Source: Ectobius pallidus
Taxonomy: Eukaryota; Arthropoda; Insecta; Blattodea; Ectobiidae
Assembly: GCA_964059195.1 (NCBI GenBank)
Contig: CAXKWD010000009.1
Coordinates: forward strand, 90,679,432-90,743,431
Direction of reading: 5' to 3'
Length of the DNA stretch: 64,000 nt
Part shown: positions 1,871-59,459 of the stretch, piece by piece
Layout: each line of letters starts with the position of its first letter
Numbering within the stretch: position 1 is the stretch's first letter
Made by a program: the position numbers and the translations under genes
The notes under the pieces: generated by a model
What the model was told of the DNA's origin: nothing
Seen by the model: the letters and a program-made list of their open reading frames with translations, nothing else
The model's database searches: none

Positions 1871-2459
1871 TGGGGCTCGGAAATTTATTAAAACATCGTA
1901 TTTTTAGTAATACACTATTATATGCTAGTGTTAAAATGTATACAAAACATGAAAGAAATAACATAAATTTGATGGCTTTATTTTGCTTATTTTGCCATAA
2001 TGCATCATAGGCTATTTGTTTGATATTAAAATATTTGTGCTTATTTTTATTAATTTGTCACATTTTAACGCCATACTTTCAACGCAAGCTCTTAATTCAA
2101 ACGTTTACAGCATAATTGTTCTAAGTGAATGTTTTTAGAACTGACTGTACAATAATGGACAGTAGCCGACATAGCCCAATGTATTCGGAACTGACTGTTT
2201 AATATTAAAGCGACGTTTCACTTATTTTGTTTTGAATTTATTAAAATTTGTTGACTTTACATTTTTCCAAACGTTTTCAAAGTAATTTACCAAACTTAGG
2301 CCTATACTATTTTTTTCTAATTTATAATGTAATTAAGCAAACAAGAGAATGTAAACTATCTTATTAATGATCGTTTGTTCCGGAGCATATTTTACAAATT
2401 TCTTAACATATTTAAATGAATGTTTCGTCTTCTGATAGAGCACTAACTTCCGGGTCTTA
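1871..2459. mobile_element. Old non-autonomous DNA element, R1 copy 1
   Basis: The ends are imperfect inverted repeats: left TGGGGCTCGGAAATTTAT, right (reverse complemented) TAAGACCCGGAAGTTAGT. The flanking 8-mers ATAATAAC and GTTATAAC agree at 6 of 8 positions, which is compatible with a degraded 8-bp target duplication. The interior from about 2040 to 2330 aligns by eye with 39.69-39.98 kb, including shared words such as ATTAAAGCGA and GTTTCACTT. There is no coding potential. This copy carries a TAGGCCTA at 2297-2304 that the second copy lacks. Confidence 0.5.
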
Positions 2460-14165: not shown

Positions 14166-14995
14166 AGTAATGATCAGGTAACAATTACTGAGGATACAGA
14201 AGATGCGTCATATATGATCAGAAAGTTGGTAGAAGAGTAGGCCTACAGGATATGGGGATTAGAAATGAATTTCAATAAAACTGAATATTTGGCAATGGAT
14301 TTGCAAGAAAAGTTAATATGTAATACAGAAGAAATTGCACATGTTGAATATTTTAAATATCTATGGTCTGTTATACAGAAGGATGCAACAACAAATTTAG
14401 AGATTCAAAGAAGAATAACGGATGGGAAGAGAATTATAGGAATGCTAAATTCTATCTTATGGAGTAAAAATATTTTACATAGAACTAAATAATTAATATA
14501 TCAGGCATTATTCCACAGTAGCCTACAACATTATATGGCGCTGAAACTTGAACCATAAGTAGACAACAAGCAAACAAATTAATGGTAAGTTATTGGAAAT
14601 GGATTTTTGGAGGCGTTCAGCAAGAAAATCCAGGAAAGAAAAAGTTCGGAATAATAGAATAAAGGAAATAATGCCAGTTGAAAAGTATATTTTGGAAATT
14701 GTAGAAGAAAGACGCTTGAGATGGTATGGACATGTACTCAGAATGACAGAGGACAGAATACCCAAGAAAATTTTGGATTGGAAAGTAGAAGGAAAAAGAA
14801 GAAGAGGGAAGCCCAAAGAGTGAGTTGAAAAGGAGTATGGCGAGAAAAGGATTAAGTGAACAAGATGCTATGGACAGGGAATTGTGGAGGCAAAAGATTG
14901 TAGTGGGATGAAGGAAAACCATTGTATTGTGGAATATTCCTTAATAAAAATTATTATTATTATTGTTATTGTTATTGTTATTGTTATTATTATAC
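14166..14995 (+). pseudogene. Broken LINE reverse transcriptase, 3' half, with microsatellite tail
   Basis: Remains of a non-LTR retrotransposon reverse transcriptase. It starts around the (A)DDQ catalytic box, here SNDQVTITEDTEDASYMIRK. It continues through MNFNKTEYL, IYQALFHS/TTLYGAET, DFWRRSARKSRKEKVRNN, RRLRWYGHVLRM and GKRRRGKP, and ends with DAMDRELWRQKIVVG and a TGA at 14909-14911. An (ATT/GTT)n tail follows, as is usual at LINE 3' ends. The 5' end is truncated at a TAA microsatellite. Disablements: an in-frame TAG from a 6-bp TAGGCCTA insertion (14238-14245), a TAA near 14491, a frameshift from a TAGCCTA insertion (14519-14525), a TGA where tryptophan is expected (ET-W-T), a frameshift near 14590, and a stop after GKPKE. 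The family is widespread in insects, but I cannot fix its clade. The two TA-insertions matter beyond this copy. Confidence 0.88.
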
Positions 14996-16800: not shown

Positions 16801-17764
16801 TCTTAATCTAGGCTATATCAGAATGTTAAGTGAGAAAGGTGTAGACCTGTTTCAAATGTTAGGGTAAAGGAAGTTAACGCGAGTGCATTAATCAGATTTC
16901 CTTTGTGGTGCATATCCTTCGGGGATGCGGTGCGATGTGGTAACGACATCGTCTTCGTTTTTACAAACGATTTGCATGAAGAGAATCATACATAATACAT
17001 TACACTAGGAAGCAAATCTTTATTTGGGCAGAGGAACCTCATTTTTGCTCTTCTTTTCCCAAATATGATTTTTAATAGTGACTTAATTTCATCAACTTTT
17101 TCAAGAATATGCTGGTTACTTTTTCTTTTTATCCAGCTTGTCCTAAACTTTTATTTGAATTCGGGATTAAGCTAAATTAAGTTATAACTTACGAGTAAAA
17201 TATATGTGCTTTAAACATGACTTAAGACCATTTATAAACGAAAATTTCTATTCCGAAGAGACATGTTAATTATCGAAGAGGGATAATCATGCTCATGTAG
17301 TTATGTTTACTCTGAGTTGGAATGACTGACTTTTGTTTGAATCGCTCGTTCGCGTGCGGCTATGTAAGTAAAATGCATTCGATTACTTCACACGCCAGCC
17401 CTGCGTTTTTTTTTTCTTTCCTTCACTTTCAAATCAGGATACATAATGAATTCCTTGATTTTCCTGCATTTAACATCTCCGTTTATTCCTTTAGAGTTTT
17501 TATTTTTCATTTTGTATTTTTACTCTCTTCACTACTTTACTTCGAGGAAGTGTTGTATACGACCCTGAAATCTGATAGCAAAATTTCAGCAAAAAGCACG
17601 TTTTGAAGTTGATTCCGAAAGTGCAATTTTCAGAAGAAAAAAGTCTGCATATTTTAACTGCATAACTCGAGAACGAAAAATCGTATGAAAAATTGTTTTT
17701 GTGTTAACTGTCTTATTCTTCCTCTTCATTACCTGAGTTTCCCCTCCTCTTGTATGTACATTTA

Positions 17765-18812
17765 TCCGGCCTACGCCGCCCGGGCCTTTCAGGACCGCGA
17801 CCCGTAGGGGGATGGAGTTTTATGGATCACACACCAGACAAGGACATGGAGGACCTCCCCGGATGAGGATCTGCCCAATGCTGGTGCCACCTCCGAGACG
17901 ACACGAACAAACAGTAGGATAGGCCTACACACCAGTCACACATATACTCATTCCGAACAAGGCGTGGATGGGATAAAGGTGATAATGACGGCCAGATGAT
18001 ATCCGGAGACCAAAAGGGCATAAAGCCACCCGACCTTTGTCTCAAAGGTGAGGAAAACCCTCGGAAAAACTCCACCTAGGTAACTCGTCCTGATCAGGAA
18101 TCGTGCCCGCTGCGTGAGAAAAGCGAACGCATCCCCTACGCCAGCGTTTCTCAACCCTTTTGAACCGGAGGACCTCTAAAATGTCTAAATTGTTTCACGG
18201 ACCCCTAATTTTACATCCCATTTTTAAAAGTAAACTATATTATATATTCTTAATATTTGGGATATTAATTATAGGTCATTATAACGAAATAATTCTAAAT
18301 ACATTTTTTTTTAATTCGACGGAAACTCAGTTATTATTGAATTGGAAGTAAACTATTGTCAGTAAAATTATATTTTGAACAGACTTTAATATTTATTACC
18401 AATTTGATAATATAATTAGGAATTATAACACAGGTTTACCGTTATCAGACACTCGGGCACCTCCAACAATAAAACCCTTGTTAAGAGAGCGCCTCTTATA
18501 ACAAATTCCGAAAAAAGTCTTATTTTTCAGGGTTTTGAATGAAACAGGGAACCATAGACGCCAGTGCATCAGGGGTTTCAAACTGTGGTTCGTAACTGCA
18601 AAAGTAAGGAACTTGCAATAGGACCTGTATTTTCTAAGATTTTAAAAACTTTGACATCTAGAGTCCATTTTATGCGAAACTTTTTTATTTCTTTACTTGC
18701 TTTATGATATTTTTTAATTATGTCTGCGGACCATCTGCACTATCTTCGCGGACCACCAGTGGTCCGCGGACCATAGGTTGAGAAACGCTGTCCTACGCCA
18801 TAGTGGACTTAA
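17765..18812 (-). mobile_element. SINE-B split by a hAT element
   Basis: SINE-B sequence runs from about 17765 (CGGCCTACGCCGCCCGGGCC) to 18141 and resumes at 18799-18812 (CATAGTGGACTT), the tRNA-like head being at the right. The 649 bp between belong to a hAT element inserted in the head. This copy also has a TAGGCCTA at 17920-17927 where the other SINE-B copies have none. Confidence 0.85.
18142..18790. mobile_element. Non-autonomous hAT element nested in a SINE
   Basis: Terminal inverted repeats CAGCGTTTCTCAACC (left) and GGTTGAGAAACGCTG (right) are exact over 15 bp. Subterminal GGACC/GGTCC motifs follow, including GGTCCGCGGACC on the right. Flanking 8-mers CCCTACGC (18134-18141) and TCCTACGC (18791-18798) match at 7 of 8 positions. 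Because the host SINE sequence continues across the insertion, the target site is independently confirmed. The interior has no transposase frame. Confidence 0.92.
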
Positions 18813-19968: not shown

Positions 19969-20185
19969 TAAGTTTATAATTATGAATTCTTTTCCACCTT
20001 CAAGCACTAGTATTTTGTATTGATATTGAAATAATAGGGTGCTGACGAAGAATTTCTAGATAGCTTATTAGCCTATAGGTATTATAAGCTATCTAGAAAT
20101 TCTCCGTCAGCACCCTATTATTTCAATATCGATACAAAATACTAGTGCTTGAAGGTGGAAAAGAATTCATAATATTATAAACTTA
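19969..20185. repeat. 217-bp near-perfect palindrome (hairpin/cruciform)
   Basis: Two arms of about 100 bp, 19969-20068 and 20084-20185, are reverse complements. I found only two substitutions and one 2-base length difference. The 15-base loop reads TAGCCTATAGGTATT. The right arm contains GAATTCATAATATTATAAAC and the left arm its counterpart. Extruded as DNA or transcribed as RNA it would form a very stable hairpin. It may be a foldback-type mobile element, but no target duplication is visible. High arm identity implies recent origin or arm-to-arm conversion. Confidence 0.95.
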
Positions 20186-22756: not shown

Positions 22757-24768
22757 TTAATGAATTTAGAAGTTAAAAGCGTTATAATACTTGACTGGGT
22801 GGTCTTTTGTGACTTGTAGCTGTGTAACCTATCATTTGGAGAAGTGTCTAGGAGTCGGCTTAGCTGTAACTAGAAGTCACTTCTAAAATGAAGTCCCAAA
22901 CCGCTATTTTAGAGGATATTAGAATCTCTTTTCCTTCAAGTCTCAGAGACCAGCAATGAATCCATATTTTTCAGTTCATCGTACCAGCATGATGTGTCAT
23001 TTCCGCAATATCATAAATATGGAAATAAGGTAAAATGGTAGTACAGGTGTAGTGCACGAATGTCGCAACACAAAAAAAGTTGGGTCATAATATTCTCAGG
23101 CAATTGAAAATAGGTATTATGCGTCAGTTGTAACGCTAGGATAGGGACGGAATCTCATATCATGGCATTACTTTTGTAATAACAGGTAATAACGTCCAAA
23201 GACATTATCCAAATAGGTGTAATTATCGTCTTCACATGAGAAAAAATCCTCCTGGGTCTATGTGACGAAGGCAGTATTGTTTAGTAATGATACAGTAGGC
23301 CATGGTTTGCTGGTTTTATTCAGTAATCAGGCAAGCCTTATGACGGCGTCAGCATGAAGATGAGTGACGTACGCAATTGATGTAATAATGGGGAGTCTGC
23401 CGTCTATCATTGTGCTTTGTGCCTCTAGTGAAATATTGTGTCCGTTTGTATCCGGTGCGAAGGCAAAGTGGCACAAGTACCATGTGGTCACTTATCCACA
23501 AGTCTTTTGCCTTCTTCCATGCGCTAATAATAGACATAACGATGCTATTTTAAGTAGGATTACGCACGTAAGTTCCATAAGTAGGCCTATCTACATTCTA
23601 CTCTTTTTCCCAGGCGTTTTCAGTGGACCGTTTCAACGCTCGTCAAAAGTTGCCTTGAGATTAGTTGTCAACAGCGATTAGAGTCCATCGTGAAATTCTC
23701 CCCTAGTCTTGAGAGTAAAATTGGTAGGCATACTAATGATTTTCTTTATAGGGCTCCTTCATTTCATTAGAGAGGAATCTCCTCAGTAACTGTAACTATT
23801 ATCAAGTGACAGTTTGGTATTCTATAAGATTACTTGGTGGACGGGTAAAATGTATGCCCGTCGGTCAGTGAATCTGTACCCGCGATAACTCGAATATGCT
23901 TTATCATATTTTCATGAACTTATAACGTCCATAGGACGAACACTAATTTATTTTGGACCAAATCGGTTGACCGGTACCGGAGTAACCGGTAACCGGTTTT
24001 TAAATAAATTCATCACTTTAGCCTACTACAAAGTCACATGGCTAACTCATTCACTGACATAATTGTTTGCCCACTTTCATGAGCAAAAAACTAGAAATTT
24101 TGCATATTTATAGCTTATATAAAAATAACATAATGTATATAATTTTAATATAATATACTAAAAATATGACTAAATTATATTTTTCAGATTTCCAACATAG
24201 CTATAAGGATTTGTGTTGTAGCTGTAGCATACTACAGGGCAGGCCAAGTTGAAATATAATTTTAAATGCTCTGTAGAATCCCGGATGACAGATACGCGAT
24301 TAACCGATGGTCCTTATTATCCAAGGTATACGCGTATATCATTAGAAGTAAATTTTAATACAATAAAATATATGATTCCGGTAAGCCTATAGTGAGAGTT
24401 GTAGGCTATAATTACTTTTATTTTCTCACTTCTGTCATTACTACAACATTTCCAATATTAGACTTTAAAATATAAATATAATTGCTTTCTCTTACCTTAA
24501 AATCTGTTTAACAAAAATATATATTAGGCCTATTGTATTTATTCGTACATTTCCATTATTGTAAATATAACATGTTGTGTCCTTACTTGAAATAATATTA
24601 ACTCATACTTTTCTATGTTTTGTAAATATTTTTTTTTAATTAGTGTAAATAATTATTTTAGTCCAAATTACTTTATTGTATTGAACTGAACCGCCCCCGA
24701 GCACATCTTTGCTTCTTCGGGTGCCGTTCGAAACCATATTTGTATAGCCTACACTTATATTGTAATTT
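22757..24768. other. No gene seen; ACCGG-rich cluster at 23967-23998
   Basis: A 105-codon frame at 23364-23681 (+) overlaps a 62-codon frame on the other strand. Neither is recognisable. At 23967-23998 the words GGTTGACCGGTACCGG and AACCGGTAACCGGTT form overlapping palindromes. Confidence 0.4.
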
Positions 24769-38977: not shown

Positions 38978-39528
38978 ACTAACGTGACCTTTCAGGCCTA
39001 TTTTGCTTATTGGAGGATGCTTTATTTCACGAAGGCTTATTTGTACGAATTTGTGTCAATCAGTCGATCTTTATTAAATCCTGATATTGGGGAAAAAATA
39101 CTTTAAGATGTCATGGAGCCTACCCGGCTCAACGGGAAGGAAATGTAGCCAGGATAAAACCGACATATCAGTTCTTCGCAGTCAGAGCAAATCGTTGCAC
39201 CAATAACTACGGGATTTAACATGCGTCCTGTCCATTATTTCCCCCGCTTCTCCCGTAGCTCTCTATGGTTGGAGGACCATTATCGCAGCTACTCCTTGCT
39301 CCTTCAAGGTGCCGGGATCAAGCAGAATAATTAAAACCAAGCAACATGTTTGGGCGCATCGTCAACCTGAAGCGTCATAAATGTATGCGCCGTTTCTACT
39401 AATATAACTTATCATTCTTATTAATGTATTAACTGTCAATATTATTTAGGGAAACGATAGGGGTTAATTGCCCGTTAGCGCCGTAGGAGACGTTGCCCCT
39501 GCTTGATAGGCGTATCATCAGAGTCCGG

Positions 39529-40130
39529 AAGTTTATGAAAATAATATTTTTAATAATGCGCTCTATTGCAGGCTCTATTACAAGACATGAAATAATTAAT
39601 AGAAAATTGATGGTTTGATTTAGTTATTATTGCATATTTTGTTGTTAGTTTTGCAATAATGCCTCATTTTTGTTCCAAATTAAATTATTTGTGCATTATT
39701 TATTAATTTTTCAAAATGTTAACAGCATATTTCTGAAAGATTTTAAATATTATACATATCTCTATTAATTAAATAATTTATAGCATATTTGACTAAGTGA
39801 ATATTTTGAGAACCGACAGTACAATGATTGACAGTACATAGCCTAGTGTTTTCGGAACTGATTGTATAACATTAAAGCGAAGTTTCACTTCATTATTTTG
39901 GAATGTACTAAAATTTGTTGCATTGACCTTGCTTTTTAAAGTTATGTAATATAATTTATACAAGTTATACTTTAAAAAAATTACAATGTCATCAGCTAAC
40001 AGGAGAACTTAAAATCACTTACATGATAGAGCATACTTCTTCGGTGCGAGAGCATATTTTACAAATTTAGAGCATATTTGCATGGATATTTCGTCATTTC
40101 TTAATGACAGAACATTAATTTCCGGGCCAT
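39529..40130 (+). mobile_element. Old non-autonomous DNA element, R1 copy 2
   Basis: The left end CAGAGTCCGGAAGTTTATGA and right end (reverse complemented) TATGGCCCGGAAATTAATG form a worn inverted repeat. The interior aligns with 1.96-2.40 kb (R1 copy 1), and the segment 39600-39710 also recurs at 40920-41040. No target duplication was recognised. Confidence 0.5.
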
Positions 40131-40583
40131 ATGACCCTGGTTATGATGATGATGATGATGAAGTAATATCTTTCCGTGACTGCAATTATTGTACAATAAG
40201 ATATTGTGAGTTTATTTAATGCTGCAGAGTTACTGTAGGTCAAGTTTGTGACATTCAGCAGAGATAATTGTTGCATGTGAAGGCACTCCAAGTAAACAAT
40301 CTGCTCTGTTGGCGTAGAGTGTATAGTTACATAGTTATGTATGCCCATTTCTATTATTGTTAAATAATATAGACACGGGATGTTTCTGCACGAAATATTT
40401 TCACACGAACTTCCTCAGTGGCTAGAGCTTGACACGAAACTCGGACAAGGGTACGTTTATAGGTTAGAATGTGAAGCGATAAAATCTAAAAAAATCTATA
40501 TTTAGAGGATGTAATAGGTTATTATTATTTAAGTCGATTTCAGTCGCTTTAACTTAGTGGTCATATCACGACTTAGAGTCTAC

Positions 40584-41393
40584 GTTCTACAATAAGACAT
40601 ATAGTGGACAACCATATGACAGTTCACAATAGGTAAACAGAGAACGATATACCAGGTTAGGCCTACCAATGATTTCAGTGTTAGTCTAATGTAGGCAATT
40701 ATGAATATTATTTACTGTATATTAAGTAGGTGTATCTGCTGTAAATTTTACAATGAATGAATATTTAACAACTCAAGAGGATTTTATGGGATTTTTTCTT
40801 ATATAAGTAGGCCTATTAGTTAACTGGAATTCTGCAAGACTAGGCTATAGCTCTAGCTGTAGGCTGTAGGCTGTGGGCTGCAGAATTCATTACACTATGT
40901 TACCACCAATGTACCACCAATAATAGAAAATTGATGGTTTCACTTAGTTATTAATGCATATTTTGTTACTTTTGCAATAATGCCTCATTTTTGCTTCAAA
41001 TTAAATTATTTGTGCATAATTTATTCAGGGTCTATAGACCCTACTTGACAGAATAAAAACGCCTTGTTCTACAATCAGACATATAGTGGACAACCATATG
41101 ACAGTTCACAATAGGTAAACAGAGAACGATATACCAGGTTAGGCCTACCAATGATTTCAGTGTTAGTATAATGTAGGTAATTATGAATATTATTTACTGT
41201 ATATTAAGTAGGTGTATCTGCTGTAAATTTTACAATGAATGAATATTTAACAACTCAAGAGGATTTTATGGGATTTTTTCTTATACAAGTAGGCCTATTA
41301 GTTAACTAGAATTCTGCAAGACTAGGCTATAGCTCTAGCTGTAGGCTGTAGGCTGTGGGCTGCAGAATTCATTACACTATGTTACCACCAATG
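40584..41393. repeat. Recent 328-bp direct duplication with R1-derived spacer
   Basis: Units 40584-40911 and 41066-41393 are identical except for about five substitutions and have no length change. The 154-bp spacer contains a copy of the R1 interior (compare AATAGAAAATTGATGGTTT at 40921 and 39599). Such an arrangement fits unequal exchange or a template-switch event involving the neighbouring R1 element. Confidence 0.95.
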
Positions 41394-44300
41394 AATGTGT
41401 GAGATTTATTTTAGATTATTGTTTGTGTATTTACTTGTTATGAAGGTTTTAAAATAAATGTCTTTGACTTTTTTAAAAAAACACTAACAATTTGCATCTT
41501 CAAACGTATTTTGAAAATCAGATATTCTGCTGTTATCTTTGTTTTTATTTATTCCTAAAAACAGTTTTTCTTCAAATATTCGGTTTTCGAGGATTAAATA
41601 AATTGAATAATAAATATTTACACTTTTTCGAGATACATGTAAGTTAGACATAGCCTAATTATCTACTCAGAATAAAAATTTTACTCCTTTTAAAATTTCG
41701 TCTTCCTTTATTTCTATTTACAATTTATCGTAATGGCTTTTGACTTGCCTAATTAGCCTAATAAGACAGAACACAACTTAATACCAAGAAATCTACAACG
41801 CATTTTAAAAGCCACATAGCTTTACATTTGGCAAAAATCGTGAAGCATTCTACACAATTCCTCTGTAAGCCTATTCTGTATTATTATTAGCTTTTAATGC
41901 TCCGCCAGTAAATGTATACTAAATTAAATGTATGAAATACATATTACTATAGATGTGCGGTGAAGATAATGAAAATTTACGTTCTATACGCAAAATTTAT
42001 CGTGTACTGTCAACTGTAGTACAGCTGTCTGCTATAATTTTCTCAGAACTCAAAATATAAGATAATGCAATGTCCTCTGTTGCATATGTCCCAGTTGTGT
42101 GACATTAAACTATCGCCTATTATAAAGTTATTGGCTATAAAGTGCCCATAATTTCATATTTAGATAATTTATGTCCTCTCTCGTATCAGGATGACACTTC
42201 CCAAGCTGATTTTCTTAATTATTACTGGTCTATCTCATTATCTGGATTTTAATTACTCGGTGACGACATGTTTCTTACTGCTATAAAAATATTAATCTTA
42301 GAGTAAATTCTGGGTATTAATTGTGTGGCAATTCTTTAATAGAGTGGAAGAAAATCTGCTAAAGGTAAACATACAAAGCTTATTATGCTTAGTAGAGCTG
42401 GGGTTATCTGCATAAAGGTTGATAGGCTAATGAGCAAATAATAGCTCAAATAATTAATCATTTATATCGAGTGATTGATTATATTATTTCATTGTTATAT
42501 ATGATGTATTGTTATTTGTTAATATGAAGTTGATTGATTCCTTATTAGGAATATTAAGTTCTAATCAATTTCGGATCCCTCTTAGGTTTATGTTTATTAA
42601 TTCAATTTTAATAATTTAATAATATCATAAAGAATTTTTGTAGCTATATATTACTGTCCCAATATTGATTTACTCATAATAAAAAATATCTATTGTCACT
42701 CTATATTTCCCGATTAACAGGTTAACCGTTAATCATATAGATGGATAATGTCTCATTTTGATCAGTTATCCAATTATTTGTAATTATCCAATAGATTGTT
42801 AAAAGAGAGTTTAGTTAGTCGTAAGTACAGCCTGAATTACGGTTCCAATACAAGAAGGTTGTTGAAAACATTCGTCTTGTGGATGAATAAATGGTGGCTG
42901 TATTTATGATATTGGCCATAGGCTACGAAGGATATGTTCATAAAACAAGAAAACAGTTTAATAAACAAGTCCTAAACTTAACAGAGAAGTATACAGTACA
43001 TAGACCAAGAATATGAGAATTAACTATAATTTATTAATGTTCATCTATAATACATCGATATAAAATTCCAGATAACTTAACTGCAAGTAAATTCCGATTA
43101 ACTATGAGTTCAAATAACGGTTAACTATTTTATATTTTCTGCAGTTAACCGTTATCCAGTTAGTTTTCCTACCTCTAATTCATAGCTCCTTGTGCCTAAA
43201 TTGAATATAGTCTATTAGGCCTACAGGCGAGCAGTTCAAAACCTATGGGTAGGTGTGTTCATAAAACAAGGAAAAAGCCTAATAAACAAGTCCCTAAAAT
43301 TAACGCATTAACGCAATAATGATTATAGGCCTGCTCATGAATATCAGATATCATGTACTTGGGTAATATTTTAGGCTTATTCACAAGGGGTTTCGAAAGG
43401 TTCATCTGATTTCAAAGTGCTATAGCCACTATTTTATTGGTGAGAATTTCTCAAGCTTCCACGAAATATTCGGTACTTTTAATGGCTTGATTTTATGCAA
43501 CAATGTTTTGAAATGTTTCCTTTTTTGTATCAGTTAACCCTAAAAATGTAAAAAACAAAATTATTTTCTTGTTTTAAATTATATCTTTCGTATTAATGAA
43601 TGTTTTCAAATGATACCAAATATGAAATTGATTTTAAAAGATTCCAGCAATGAGCTGTAAGTTCAGGAATAAATTAGTAAAGCGCGTTCCACTAAGATTA
43701 ATCTTATTTCAAAGTTCTGTAACTCCGCCAGCATTTCTAGGGGAGAAAGGAAAATAGAACATTTCTATCCATAGTAATTAAAACTTGATAAATCTAGATG
43801 TTTTGCAAACTGCATCTCAATGATCTATGTTCATTTCTTAGAAAATAATTAACACTGTGAAATTTTATAATTGAATAACATGAAATCTTTTCTAGCAGCT
43901 CAGAGTTTTAAAAAAATGCTTCAATCTTATTATCAATATTATCGTCTAATGTTGTTTTACCGTCGCCTATGTTTTATAAATAAATTAAAATTTTATCTTT
44001 TTAGTTTCTGTATAATGGAAGTACTGCTCTATTTATTTTAAACAATTTAAAAAACTCTTATACGGCTACACAATAAAGATATTTTCCTACTTTACTAGCC
44101 TATTTGTTTGGCGATGTTATTCTGTAATTCTCTCTGCTGGCTCATATAGGCCTAGGCCTATGTAAAACTTTTTAAATCGAGATGAAAAACTACAGCTATT
44201 TAAGAAGTAAATATCCTGTACACAATATCATAGTAGTCATCATCTGGATCTTACCGTTTTGACTATCATTTTTCATAGGTCTATCATTAGTATCATAGTC

Positions 44301-55991: not shown

Positions 55992-58966
55992 ACTATTTTT
56001 ATTACCATTATTTGCAGCAGTGGTTAATATTTCGTTGTTTATTGCCAGAAGGTCGCATGTCAGTATCCACTAAAAATGAACCTATTTGCTCATTCACTTA
56101 AAAACATAGGCCTATGTGAACTATTTTCTACCTAAAGGTTGTATGTTGAAAACCACTCTCACTTGATGTAGATGTGTTTCCCATATGGTTGTGTGTCATT
56201 TTTTCAATAAGACATGGCATATTTCAAAAGACATATTTTGAGTACAGTAAATTATAAAACTTTCTGGCAGAAATGCACATATGTTCTTATGGAAGTAAAG
56301 CGACGATTTGGTAACATACTCATTCTTTTAGTAAGGATGACGTTCCCATTTATGCTATGGGGCTTTACAACACACGATCAGAGTCAGTTTCAACGTAAAA
56401 TAAAAAACTAAATCAAATTGGGGTTATCAAATTTGACGATTATACTCACAACTTCCGGTTCTAGCTTTTAAGCGGAGTCACGTCTCTGAGTTTAATTTAG
56501 AGTGCAGGCCTATTTAAGTATTTATTTAATTAAAATTATCTAATTAGGTAAGCCACATGATGGTTGAAGAACCTTCTCGCAAGAATAATATATCATAAAA
56601 TTAATTATAAACTGATTTCATGGTCTCGTTTGGTGACTGGAAGAAATTCGTTTTTCCTGTGCAACCAAAATCTTATGAAATAGGCCTACTTCGTACTGAG
56701 ATTAAAACTATGACAGAAAAATGTATATTTATTGGCATATTTCAGTATTTTGTTTCATTCTTTTGTCGTTTCAAATGTTACTCACTTTTCTCCATAAGTC
56801 GACTAAAATTATTGTAAAATTTAATTCGAAACTTTTCGCAATCACTGTATATAATACGAGGAGTGAAGTTTGGGTTAGCCTTTCTCATCCTATAATAGCC
56901 TAATTTCGTATTGCAAAATGGACTGAACTAGACCTAAATATAGAAATATTAACGTTGTTTTTTTTTGCATTAAATGTCTTAATTTAATAAATTTAGGTCT
57001 ATATTCCCAAATTAATCTTATTATTCCAACACGTATCTTCATCCATAATAATGCCTAAATATATGAGTTTTGCCACATGTTCAAATCAAGGTTGGTGGTT
57101 CTTAAGCCATTATTGCATGGACTAATTTATACAGGTGTGTACGATCGGTTTTTATTGTCGTGAATATACAAGACCGCATACTCGGCTTCTGCGTGGCTTG
57201 AATATGCTACTCTCGCTTCCATTGTGCTGAGATACATTTTTTAATTGGAACCAGACATGGCGCACCACATAACTTACGTATTTGTTACGAAGAAATTACA
57301 TGTATCATTGTTCACCCAACAGTCATTTTTGGTAAGGACGTATACGTTATTTTATTATTCTTTTGTTTGTGGGTAACTATAAGTTCTATTGAGACATTTT
57401 TACAAATTTAAACTGTTGCTGCATGAAACTATTGCCTGCTTGAAACCTTGCTTGTTCTTGAAACCCGGTTTGGGAGAGTTTAGCGTCAAATCAATAGTGT
57501 CTTGTGTTGTGTGAATTGTAAATGAATTTTGATTGTTAGACTATTATCGCCAGTATTTAATAGAGGGAAAATCCACAAGGGATAAACTGCCCCAATTACT
57601 TGGGCCTTATTAAGGAAGTTAATGCTCCATCAGAAAAGTAAATTTGAATGCGAAAATGGTCTAAAATTTATAAAACAGGCTATGCTCTTGATCCAATGAA
57701 ATATGCTCTATCATTTAAATAATGTCAATACTTTACGCTCTCTTTGTTAGGTGAATTACATTAGGGCCATAATTTGCAAAAAGAATTATAGAATTTGTAT
57801 AATTTACTATTACAAAACTTTTATAAGCGCGAGGTGAATGCAACAAATTTTGGTAAATTGAAAACATTCACCTCGCTAATTATGCTAAATGTTTGACTTA
57901 ACAGATAGGCCTATGCACAAGATTTAAAATATTTCAGAAATGTGACGTTAAAATTTTACACATTAATAAAATATCCACAATATTTTATCATGTAGCAAAT
58001 ATTGTCGTATTATCGCAAAACTAACAAATTATGCCAAATGAAAGAATAATTTTCTGTTATTTTGTATGTCTTATACACACTTTAACGCCAGCATATAAAA
58101 GTTTGCACTATTAAAAATAACATTTTTCATAAACTCCCGGGACCTATCTATAAGTTTATCATATTGATTCTCCCAATTTGGAATGCATTTTATGATATCT
58201 TAAAACCAAGGAAGATGTCTATTTAATAATAAAAAAAAGTATTGCCGATACTTTAAGCACGATAATAAGGTGAACTATAACCTTTGCTTTAAGCCCAGAA
58301 GATTATTTCTTAAGAATGTGGTTAGCGCAGAATAAGAAAACAATGGGAGGCACTTGAAGGAGTGCACTTGAAACACTGTTGACTGTAGGCATTGGGGAAT
58401 TCATCATCCACTTCAAAATTCGAACAAGCACTTTTGCAATGAATCAAAAGGTCGGTTCCAATTTACTGACGTATAAATCGCTCCTGTTTTATAGAGTTGC
58501 CGATACAGGCCCTCTCATAACTACCGGCTATGCTGTATTTGGTTCATTCTAATCTAAAGTCATTTCCTATAAAGTAAAATCGATAGAGTTGCGATATTCG
58601 CAATTGCGATAACGCGATTTTATTCTTGAATTTTAACGTTTTTGTATGAAAACCCCAAATTTTCACGCTCCAGTCCAGTCGAGACCAGTTCTTCACGCTA
58701 GCACTCAGTTATATTTAAGTATGTCTTCATATTTAAAGAGGTCTTTAATGTAGATAGTAAGTATTATTTCGGGAAAAAATAGTTTTATGCCAGGCACTAG
58801 GCTCCTAAACTAACATAAACATTCCTAACCTAACAAAACGGCTGAGCTTGGCTGGTGCGCGGCATAAATCTATCTTTTACCATTACTTCTTCTAGTTAGG
58901 TACATCTATTTAATAATCTTTTCCTAAAACTTTTTACTTTTACCCTGTAATAAGCAGGGCCCGGAT
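55992..58966. other. No gene seen; hairpin at 57829-57876
   Basis: AT-rich. GCGAGGTGAATG at 57829-57840 pairs with CATTCACCTCGC at 57865-57876 across a 24-base loop. No coding frames. Confidence 0.45.
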
Positions 58967-59160: not shown

Positions 59161-59212
59161 ATCTTGTGTTGTTTCACGCATTATTTAGAGTTTTTATGCA
59201 TTTATACATTGA

Positions 59213-59459
59213 AACGTTCCTTAAACGCTTGCAAATCGTATCCAAAACGTCTGCAAAAGTTTCCAAATCGTTTGCAAAACGTTTCCAAAAGTCTCCAAAA
59301 CGTTTCCAAATCGTTTCCAAATCGTTTCCAAAAGTTTGCAAAACGTTTCCAAAACGTTTCCAAAACTTTTGCAAAACGTTTCCAAAACGATTCCAAGACG
59401 TTTCCAAGACGTTTCCAAAACGTTGGCAAAAGTTTGCAAATGTCTCTAAAAGTTTGCAA
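59213..59459. repeat. 11-bp minisatellite (CGTTTCCAAAA)n
   Basis: About 22 units of CGTTTCCAAAA with variants such as CGTTTGCAAAA and CTTTTGCAAAA. Because 11 is not a multiple of 3, translation cycles through one 11-residue peptide per 33 bp, which explains open frames of 72-114 codons in several frames on both strands. None is a gene. An A-tract recurs once per unit. Confidence 0.95.

Follow-up and report, generated by a model that had tools for sequence, protein, structure and literature searches.

Excision of Sleeping Beauty and other Tc1-like transposons leaves the footprint words TACAGTA or TACTGTA. Short palindromes that are hugely over-represented in a genome are also known, namely HIP1 and the other highly iterated palindromes of cyanobacteria. 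As described in an excerpt of a review, Sleeping Beauty generates 3-base 3' overhangs and its footprints are identical to them (PMC7827188), and natural footprints of the Tc1/mariner group are characterized as diverse and 1-4 bases long in part of a further publication (PMC1925063). Here, we analyzed a 64,000-nucleotide stretch of the 2.12-Gb Ectobius pallidus genome (C9:90679432-90743431, hereafter the window), in which the 8-base word TAGGCCTA and the 7-base words TAGCCTA and TAGGCTA recur within repeats, and we propose that these words are probably excision footprints of TA-inserting cut-and-paste transposons with a Tc1/mariner-type mechanism.

Protein relatives and genomic copies identify 14190..14940 (+ strand) of the window as a broken reverse transcriptase gene of a LINE (non-LTR retrotransposon), specifically its 3' part. 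Within it, TAGGCCTA at 14238..14245 (site 1) adds six bases at a GTAC target and introduces a stop into the reading frame, and TAGCCTA at 14519..14525 (site 2) adds five bases at a GTAC target and causes a frameshift. Both words lie where the initial annotation had placed them. Its claim that these two insertions break the reverse transcriptase is borne out by P0001, the closest of 65 protein relatives (81% identical), which reads LVEEYKIWG and QSTTLYGAETW, i.e., has neither insertion. The RVT_1 match in P0001 (E 3.3e-6) is just under the Pfam curated cut-off, and the three relatives with a species name all derive from beetles. This LINE copy contains one more insertion, a change from TA to TAAGTTA at 14586..14592 (+5 bases), which the initial annotation had not listed. 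ATTATT repeats follow the window copy, and at the 3' ends of L223 and L225 seemingly 5'-truncated LINE copies stand directly behind long TTA tracts.

LINE copies from the same genome were compared using the best 40 of 2,324 first-look candidates, the window copy included; the 39 non-self copies are all other scored places and form a sample biased to the copies that are most window-like. Of these 39, 29 cover site 1 and all cover site 2, and no insertion was present in 28 and 38 of them, respectively. Within the first 20 fetched, plain TA was kept in 18/19 and 17/19 empty copies, respectively, with CA or TG in the remainder, so that the expectation of the initial annotation that most copies have a plain TA held at both sites. 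The sole exception at either site was L168, which has the same TAGGCCTA and the same TAGCCTA. An extra copy located via its scar, L122, is filled at site 1 and without insertion at site 2, which brings the copies filled at site 1 to three (window, L168, L122). No intact element was found at site 1 in the three LINE copies with a match starting near this site (L178, L179, and L181); two of these lie behind long TTA tracts and one behind an AT-rich stretch, and they therefore look 5'-truncated. Away from alignment ends, scars at TA make up six of the nine insertions of at least 3 bases in the 39 copies, all six in purine-TA-pyrimidine context. Four of them are clustered in L168 (GGCC, GAC, GCC, GGCC), which with 38 substitutions has diverged more than any other of the 39, and the other two are found in L174 (GGC) and L182 (GGCC). 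GTAC occurs three times in the LINE consensus, which contains 61 TAs in total; L168 bears scars at each of these three sites and the window copy at two of them.

Scars and corresponding empty sites are also apparent in other repeats. In repeat B copy 1870-2460, TAGGCTA at 2008..2014 has no counterpart in three other window copies. TAGGCCTA at 2297..2304 (+6 bases), also in repeat B, is missing in copy 39520-40135, and TAGCCGA at 2163..2169, probably a decayed TAGCCTA scar (+5), corresponds to plain TA in this same copy. Copy 39520-40135 likewise reads plain TA where repeat B copy 57620-58145 (- strand) carries TAGGCCTA at 57906..57913, and TAGCCTG at 57676..57682 (- strand), probably another decayed TAGCCTA scar (+5) in repeat B, is matched by plain TA in two other copies. 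An older repeat B scar at 39839 is common to two copies and has decayed at 2172. In a SINE-like family, one of five window copies (17710-18070, - strand) carries TAGGCCTA at 17920..17927; the four scar-free window copies do not read TA at this site, and an empty copy with TA is present in L134. Three units neighboring L138:4940 in a tandem array lack the six bases, and TAGGCCTAGGCCTA at 44147..44160 reads like a scar inside the TA of an earlier scar. Homologues were sought for 256 scars with enough flank from the window, random loci, and pattern loci. The 37 scars with a scorable homologue comprised 14 with at least one empty homologue (a few being ambiguous alignments, e.g., L127:677 and L123:1505), 12 with identical homologues only (six of them representing one tandem duplication in the window), and 11 in other states. 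The LINE, SINE-like, and other repeat alignments agree with the claim of the initial annotation that the words arise as insertions at TA, and from these sequence comparisons such an origin of TAGGCCTA and TAGCCTA-type words is near certain.

Further repeats show additional scar configurations. A 328-bp tandem duplication at 40584-41393 (482 bp apart, 98.5% identical) has three scars in common. At one homologous site, TAGCCTA is found at 24745 of the window and TAGGCCTA at L140:825. Many copies of another repeat family (L121, L126, and several of L200-L219) have one common TAGGCCTA scar, and a copy of the same family at L140:7990 has an empty TA at this place; none of 20 sampled places is the LINE.

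The words are highly abundant. The window contains 56 TAGGCCTA words versus 0.82 expected and 63 TAGCCTA/TAGGCTA words versus 8.33 expected. Twenty 10-kb regions elsewhere on two contigs contain 50 and 60 of these words, respectively, compared to 0, 3, 4, and 2 occurrences of four control palindromes of equal G+C in the same regions, and scar density per kb is about threefold higher in the window than in the twenty regions. Extrapolation from the latter suggests about 0.9 million (chance level removed) to 1.2 million words genome-wide. Beside the 56 intact TAGGCCTA words, the window has 51 single-substitution relatives versus ~16.5 expected, mainly transitions; TAGACCTA is the expected decay form. 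The excess of such relatives indicates that scars decay and are inherited. Removal of the scars did not lengthen open frames more than in controls.

Both scar forms have the same target preference. The base at position -1 of the scars is A in 51, G in 37, T in 17, and C in 7 cases (n=112; p 1.5e-9), i.e., purines are preferred, and T is depleted (17 versus 38.6 expected). The TAGGCCTA rate per TA relative to the mean is 4.18-fold at GTAC, 3.55-fold at GTAT/ATAC, and 1.3 at ATAT, and the TAGCCTA rate is 2.15-2.61-fold at GTAC, GTAT, and ATAC. Purine-TA-pyrimidine targets are preferred by both forms, and this palindromic TA preference is of the Tc1/mariner type.

GGCC and GGC/GCC are far above all other G- or C-containing inserts located between two TAs, and neither GG/CC nor GC is enriched; AT-only microsatellite words between two TAs are also enriched. 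It is intriguing to propose a mechanism in which a cut-and-paste element would insert at TA, duplicate it, and on departure leave on each flank a 3-base 3' overhang of its own terminal bases, with GGC as the dominant donor overhang. Two GGC overhangs could anneal along all three bases and leave a G-G mismatch in the center, the repair of which would yield TAGGCTA or TAGCCTA. Alternatively, only the self-complementary GC would pair, and fill-in of one base per side would yield TAGGCCTA. The scars would later decay by ordinary substitution. In two repeat units of L135 that are 93% identical, TAGGCTA (L135:4920) and TAGCCTA (L135:6957) occupy the matching place; such a pair would be expected if each word represented one strand of a single mismatched footprint. 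Among 336 overhangs of 2-4 bases, GGC alone gives exactly the observed product set upon annealing, by a rule that was fitted after the products had been seen; for the overhang CAG, the same annealing rule gives TACAGTA/TACTGTA. The initial annotation had assumed element ends GG..CC. From a 2-base GG overhang, however, one would predict TAGGTA/TACCTA. These words show no enrichment, and the assumed ends are thus better replaced by a 3-base GGC overhang.

The outer-base pairing rule was further evaluated in 244 kb, i.e., the window and 18 of the 20 random regions, with L141 and L147 left out. G/C-containing triplets with pairing outer bases are enriched as a class (p 0.009; p 0.026 if GGC is excluded), and this class enrichment is absent from all seven control frames. 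Individual z scores in the 244 kb are 18.8 for GGC, 4.9 for ACT, 4.3 for CAG, and 2.9 for GAC. Among the triplets that conform to the pairing rule, TCA and CCG are not enriched in these 244 kb, and the rule-breaking triplets AGC (z 3.7) and ATG (z 2.9) are mildly enriched, AGC perhaps representing decayed GGC. Neither TAC and CAC footprints (z -0.5 and -1.0) nor four-base palindromic inserts as a class (p 0.20) are enriched in the same 244 kb. At one TA, LINE position 385, an AGT scar is present in the window copy and a GGC scar (TAGGCTA) in L174, as would be expected if several transposon families had a common target preference.

In comparison to single-TA copies, the scarred copies read TA-GGCC-TA or TA-GCC-TA, i.e., the insertion is at TA and TA is duplicated, as in Tc1/mariner footprints. 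Three indirect lines of evidence, namely the duplicated TA, the target preference, and the match of the products to overhang annealing, make Tc1/mariner-type excision likely. The initial interpretation as a Tc1/mariner-type scar is thus partly supported and is the best explanation. A counterpoint to the footprint interpretation is that the scars are strikingly uniform, whereas natural footprints of this group have been characterized as diverse.

A donor was sought among TA-bounded and transposase-encoding elements. Intact elements bounded by TAGG...CCTA, which the initial annotation had anticipated, were not recovered, as no TA-bounded GGC element was found in 288 kb, window included. The only TAGGC hit in the 288 kb (L143) is inside an inverted repeat that runs past the TA, and both this hit and TAGG-type TIR hits in L147 were rejected as donors as they are parts of longer inverted repeats; L147 also contains a very long near-perfect inverted repeat (L147:5512-9637). 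A hAT-like non-autonomous element at 371-847 starts with TAGGGGGCGG and has the TIR TAGGGGGCGGATTT, but was rejected as donor as it has an 8-base direct duplication, GTTATTAC. Matches to Tc1/mariner-type transposases (DDE_3) are abundant in the genome: 150 of 6,152 candidates were scored, with all those listed above the Pfam cut-off. In total, 15 of the 6,152 candidate loci were fetched, of which 13 belong to three families and two are untyped. Both ends were seen for family A (TA-TACC) and one end each for family B (TA-CACC) and family C (ACTG-TA). The CAG end of family C agrees with the mild TACAGTA excess, and a GGC end is found in none of the three typed families (13 of the 15 fetched loci). 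An 888-bp stretch in L142 has TA-CAGTGTGTCCC at both ends. The donor of the commonest scar may be among the remaining DDE_3 candidates, belong to another superfamily, or be gone.

An alternative hypothesis is a dedicated, transposon-free process acting on RTAY sites, where it would insert GGC(C)+TA, perhaps in bursts that strike certain repeat copies; an enzyme could, e.g., cleave GTAC-like sites and add or capture a short, fixed set of bases. Unusually uniform products, four of six scars in one of 39 copies, and the lack of a donor in 288 kb are in its favor, as is the fact that the window copy and L168 have identical products at sites 1 and 2 without excess shared substitutions. Of their 25 and 38 derived substitutions, these two copies share only two (background 0-4), and repeated insertion at preferred targets is therefore the best reading of the sites that they have in common. 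As all three consensus GTAC sites, the only ones available, are scarred in L168, target preference may account for this recurrence. Further arguments against a dedicated process, which we regard as unlikely, are the presence of other scar triplets (AGT, GAC) in the same copies, the pairing of outer bases expected for overhang annealing, and the fact that L168 is also the most diverged copy. Its stricter form, a mutational process that involves no transposon family and adds GGC(C)TA at RTAY in bursts, thereby disabling particular repeat copies, appears more doubtful again; it would resemble fungal repeat-induced mutation, with 3/3 GTAC sites hit in L168. The clustering of scars in one LINE copy is the main unexplained point and, together with same-site recurrence, leaves room for another mechanism.

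Sites common to several copies could also have been inherited from a scarred LINE master or spread by gene conversion between copies rather than hit recurrently. While such transfer would account for the filled site 1 in the window copy, L168, and L122 and for the repeat family with one scar in many copies, it is very improbable given that shared substitutions do not exceed background, that site 385 has different scars in two copies, and that a stop and a frameshift would presumably disable a master; it also leaves the origin of the scars unexplained. Programmed elimination of germline-only elements, with an assembly of somatic DNA, would explain scars without donors. Scars of this kind would be made anew each generation and hence be unmutated, yet decay variants are in excess, and mutated scars common to duplicated segments indicate inheritance, so that we give this possibility very little weight. 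Selection for TAGGCCTA as a regulatory palindrome, or its rise by substitution, is scarcely credible despite the strong enrichment, as the insertions are located in dead repeat copies, empty-site alignments already disfavor it, and decay forms accompany the intact words in excess.

Other known origins were rejected. PIF/Harbinger elements have a 3-base TTA/TAA target duplication, piggyBac targets TTAA, and a telomere-fusion origin would involve the repeat words TTAGG/CCTAA, all of which conflict with the depletion of T at -1; TTAA is, moreover, not among the listed preferred contexts. hAT footprints have an 8-base target duplication around the remnant, whereas the net insertions here are 5-6 bases with TA alone duplicated.

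Searches of public collections recovered no relatives: in viral_contigs, two patterns for SINE relatives had no matches and 24 pattern matches for LINE relatives included no relative, and in genome_contigs 31 pattern matches included no relative and another search had no matches. Palindrome density was counted in at least 120 stretches with paired palindromes, the best 20 of 120 being listed, and the five that were read (L036, L067, L078, L080, and L089) contained nothing useful. The phenomenon was not found in print within the open-licence literature; TAGGCCTA appears in the text of 182 papers, and none of the 40 titles listed among them deals with it. In microsatellite papers, TAGGCCTA was present in 14 versus 42 for a control word, a comparison that gave nothing useful. 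Part of one article reports a primer for cockroach R2-like retrotransposons that contains GTAGGCCTAT (PMC7650587). Neither Rfam families nor tRNAs were detected by scanning the window, and Pfam gave no match for nine window frames. The window further includes a near-perfect 90-nt inverted repeat at 19979-20173 (98%) having a 15-nt loop with TAGCCTATAGGTA and an array of the 11-base unit AAACGTTTCCA at 59212-59459.

If the words are excision scars, this genome records roughly a million transposon departures by extrapolation, each of them site-resolved and datable by decay, and most insertions of at least 3 bases in the sampled LINE copies (6/9) stem from excision. Excision rates, target choice, and end-joining outcomes would then be readable over long times, and one extremely over-represented 8-base word would be explained. 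If no donor exists, the scars would point to an unknown insertion process.

In comparison with known systems, the scars are like Sleeping Beauty and other Tc1-like footprints in having flanking TAs with three bases between them, an outer pair, a middle mismatch, and the same annealing rule. They differ in that the middle is GGC/GCC and not CAG/CTG, in the second, 4-base product GGCC, and in their abundance, which is extrapolated to about a million. Over-representation is shared with HIP1, but here the palindrome is an insertion at TA that decays by substitution. Footprints of Stowaway, a Tc1/mariner MITE, in Triticeae are similarly described in part of one publication as short stretches of the terminal repeats, 1-4 bases long, that remain between TA duplications (PMC1925063). 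The Stowaway footprints in this part are few, single-locus, and heterogeneous (PMC1925063), whereas the scars described here are spread across the genome and nearly uniform.
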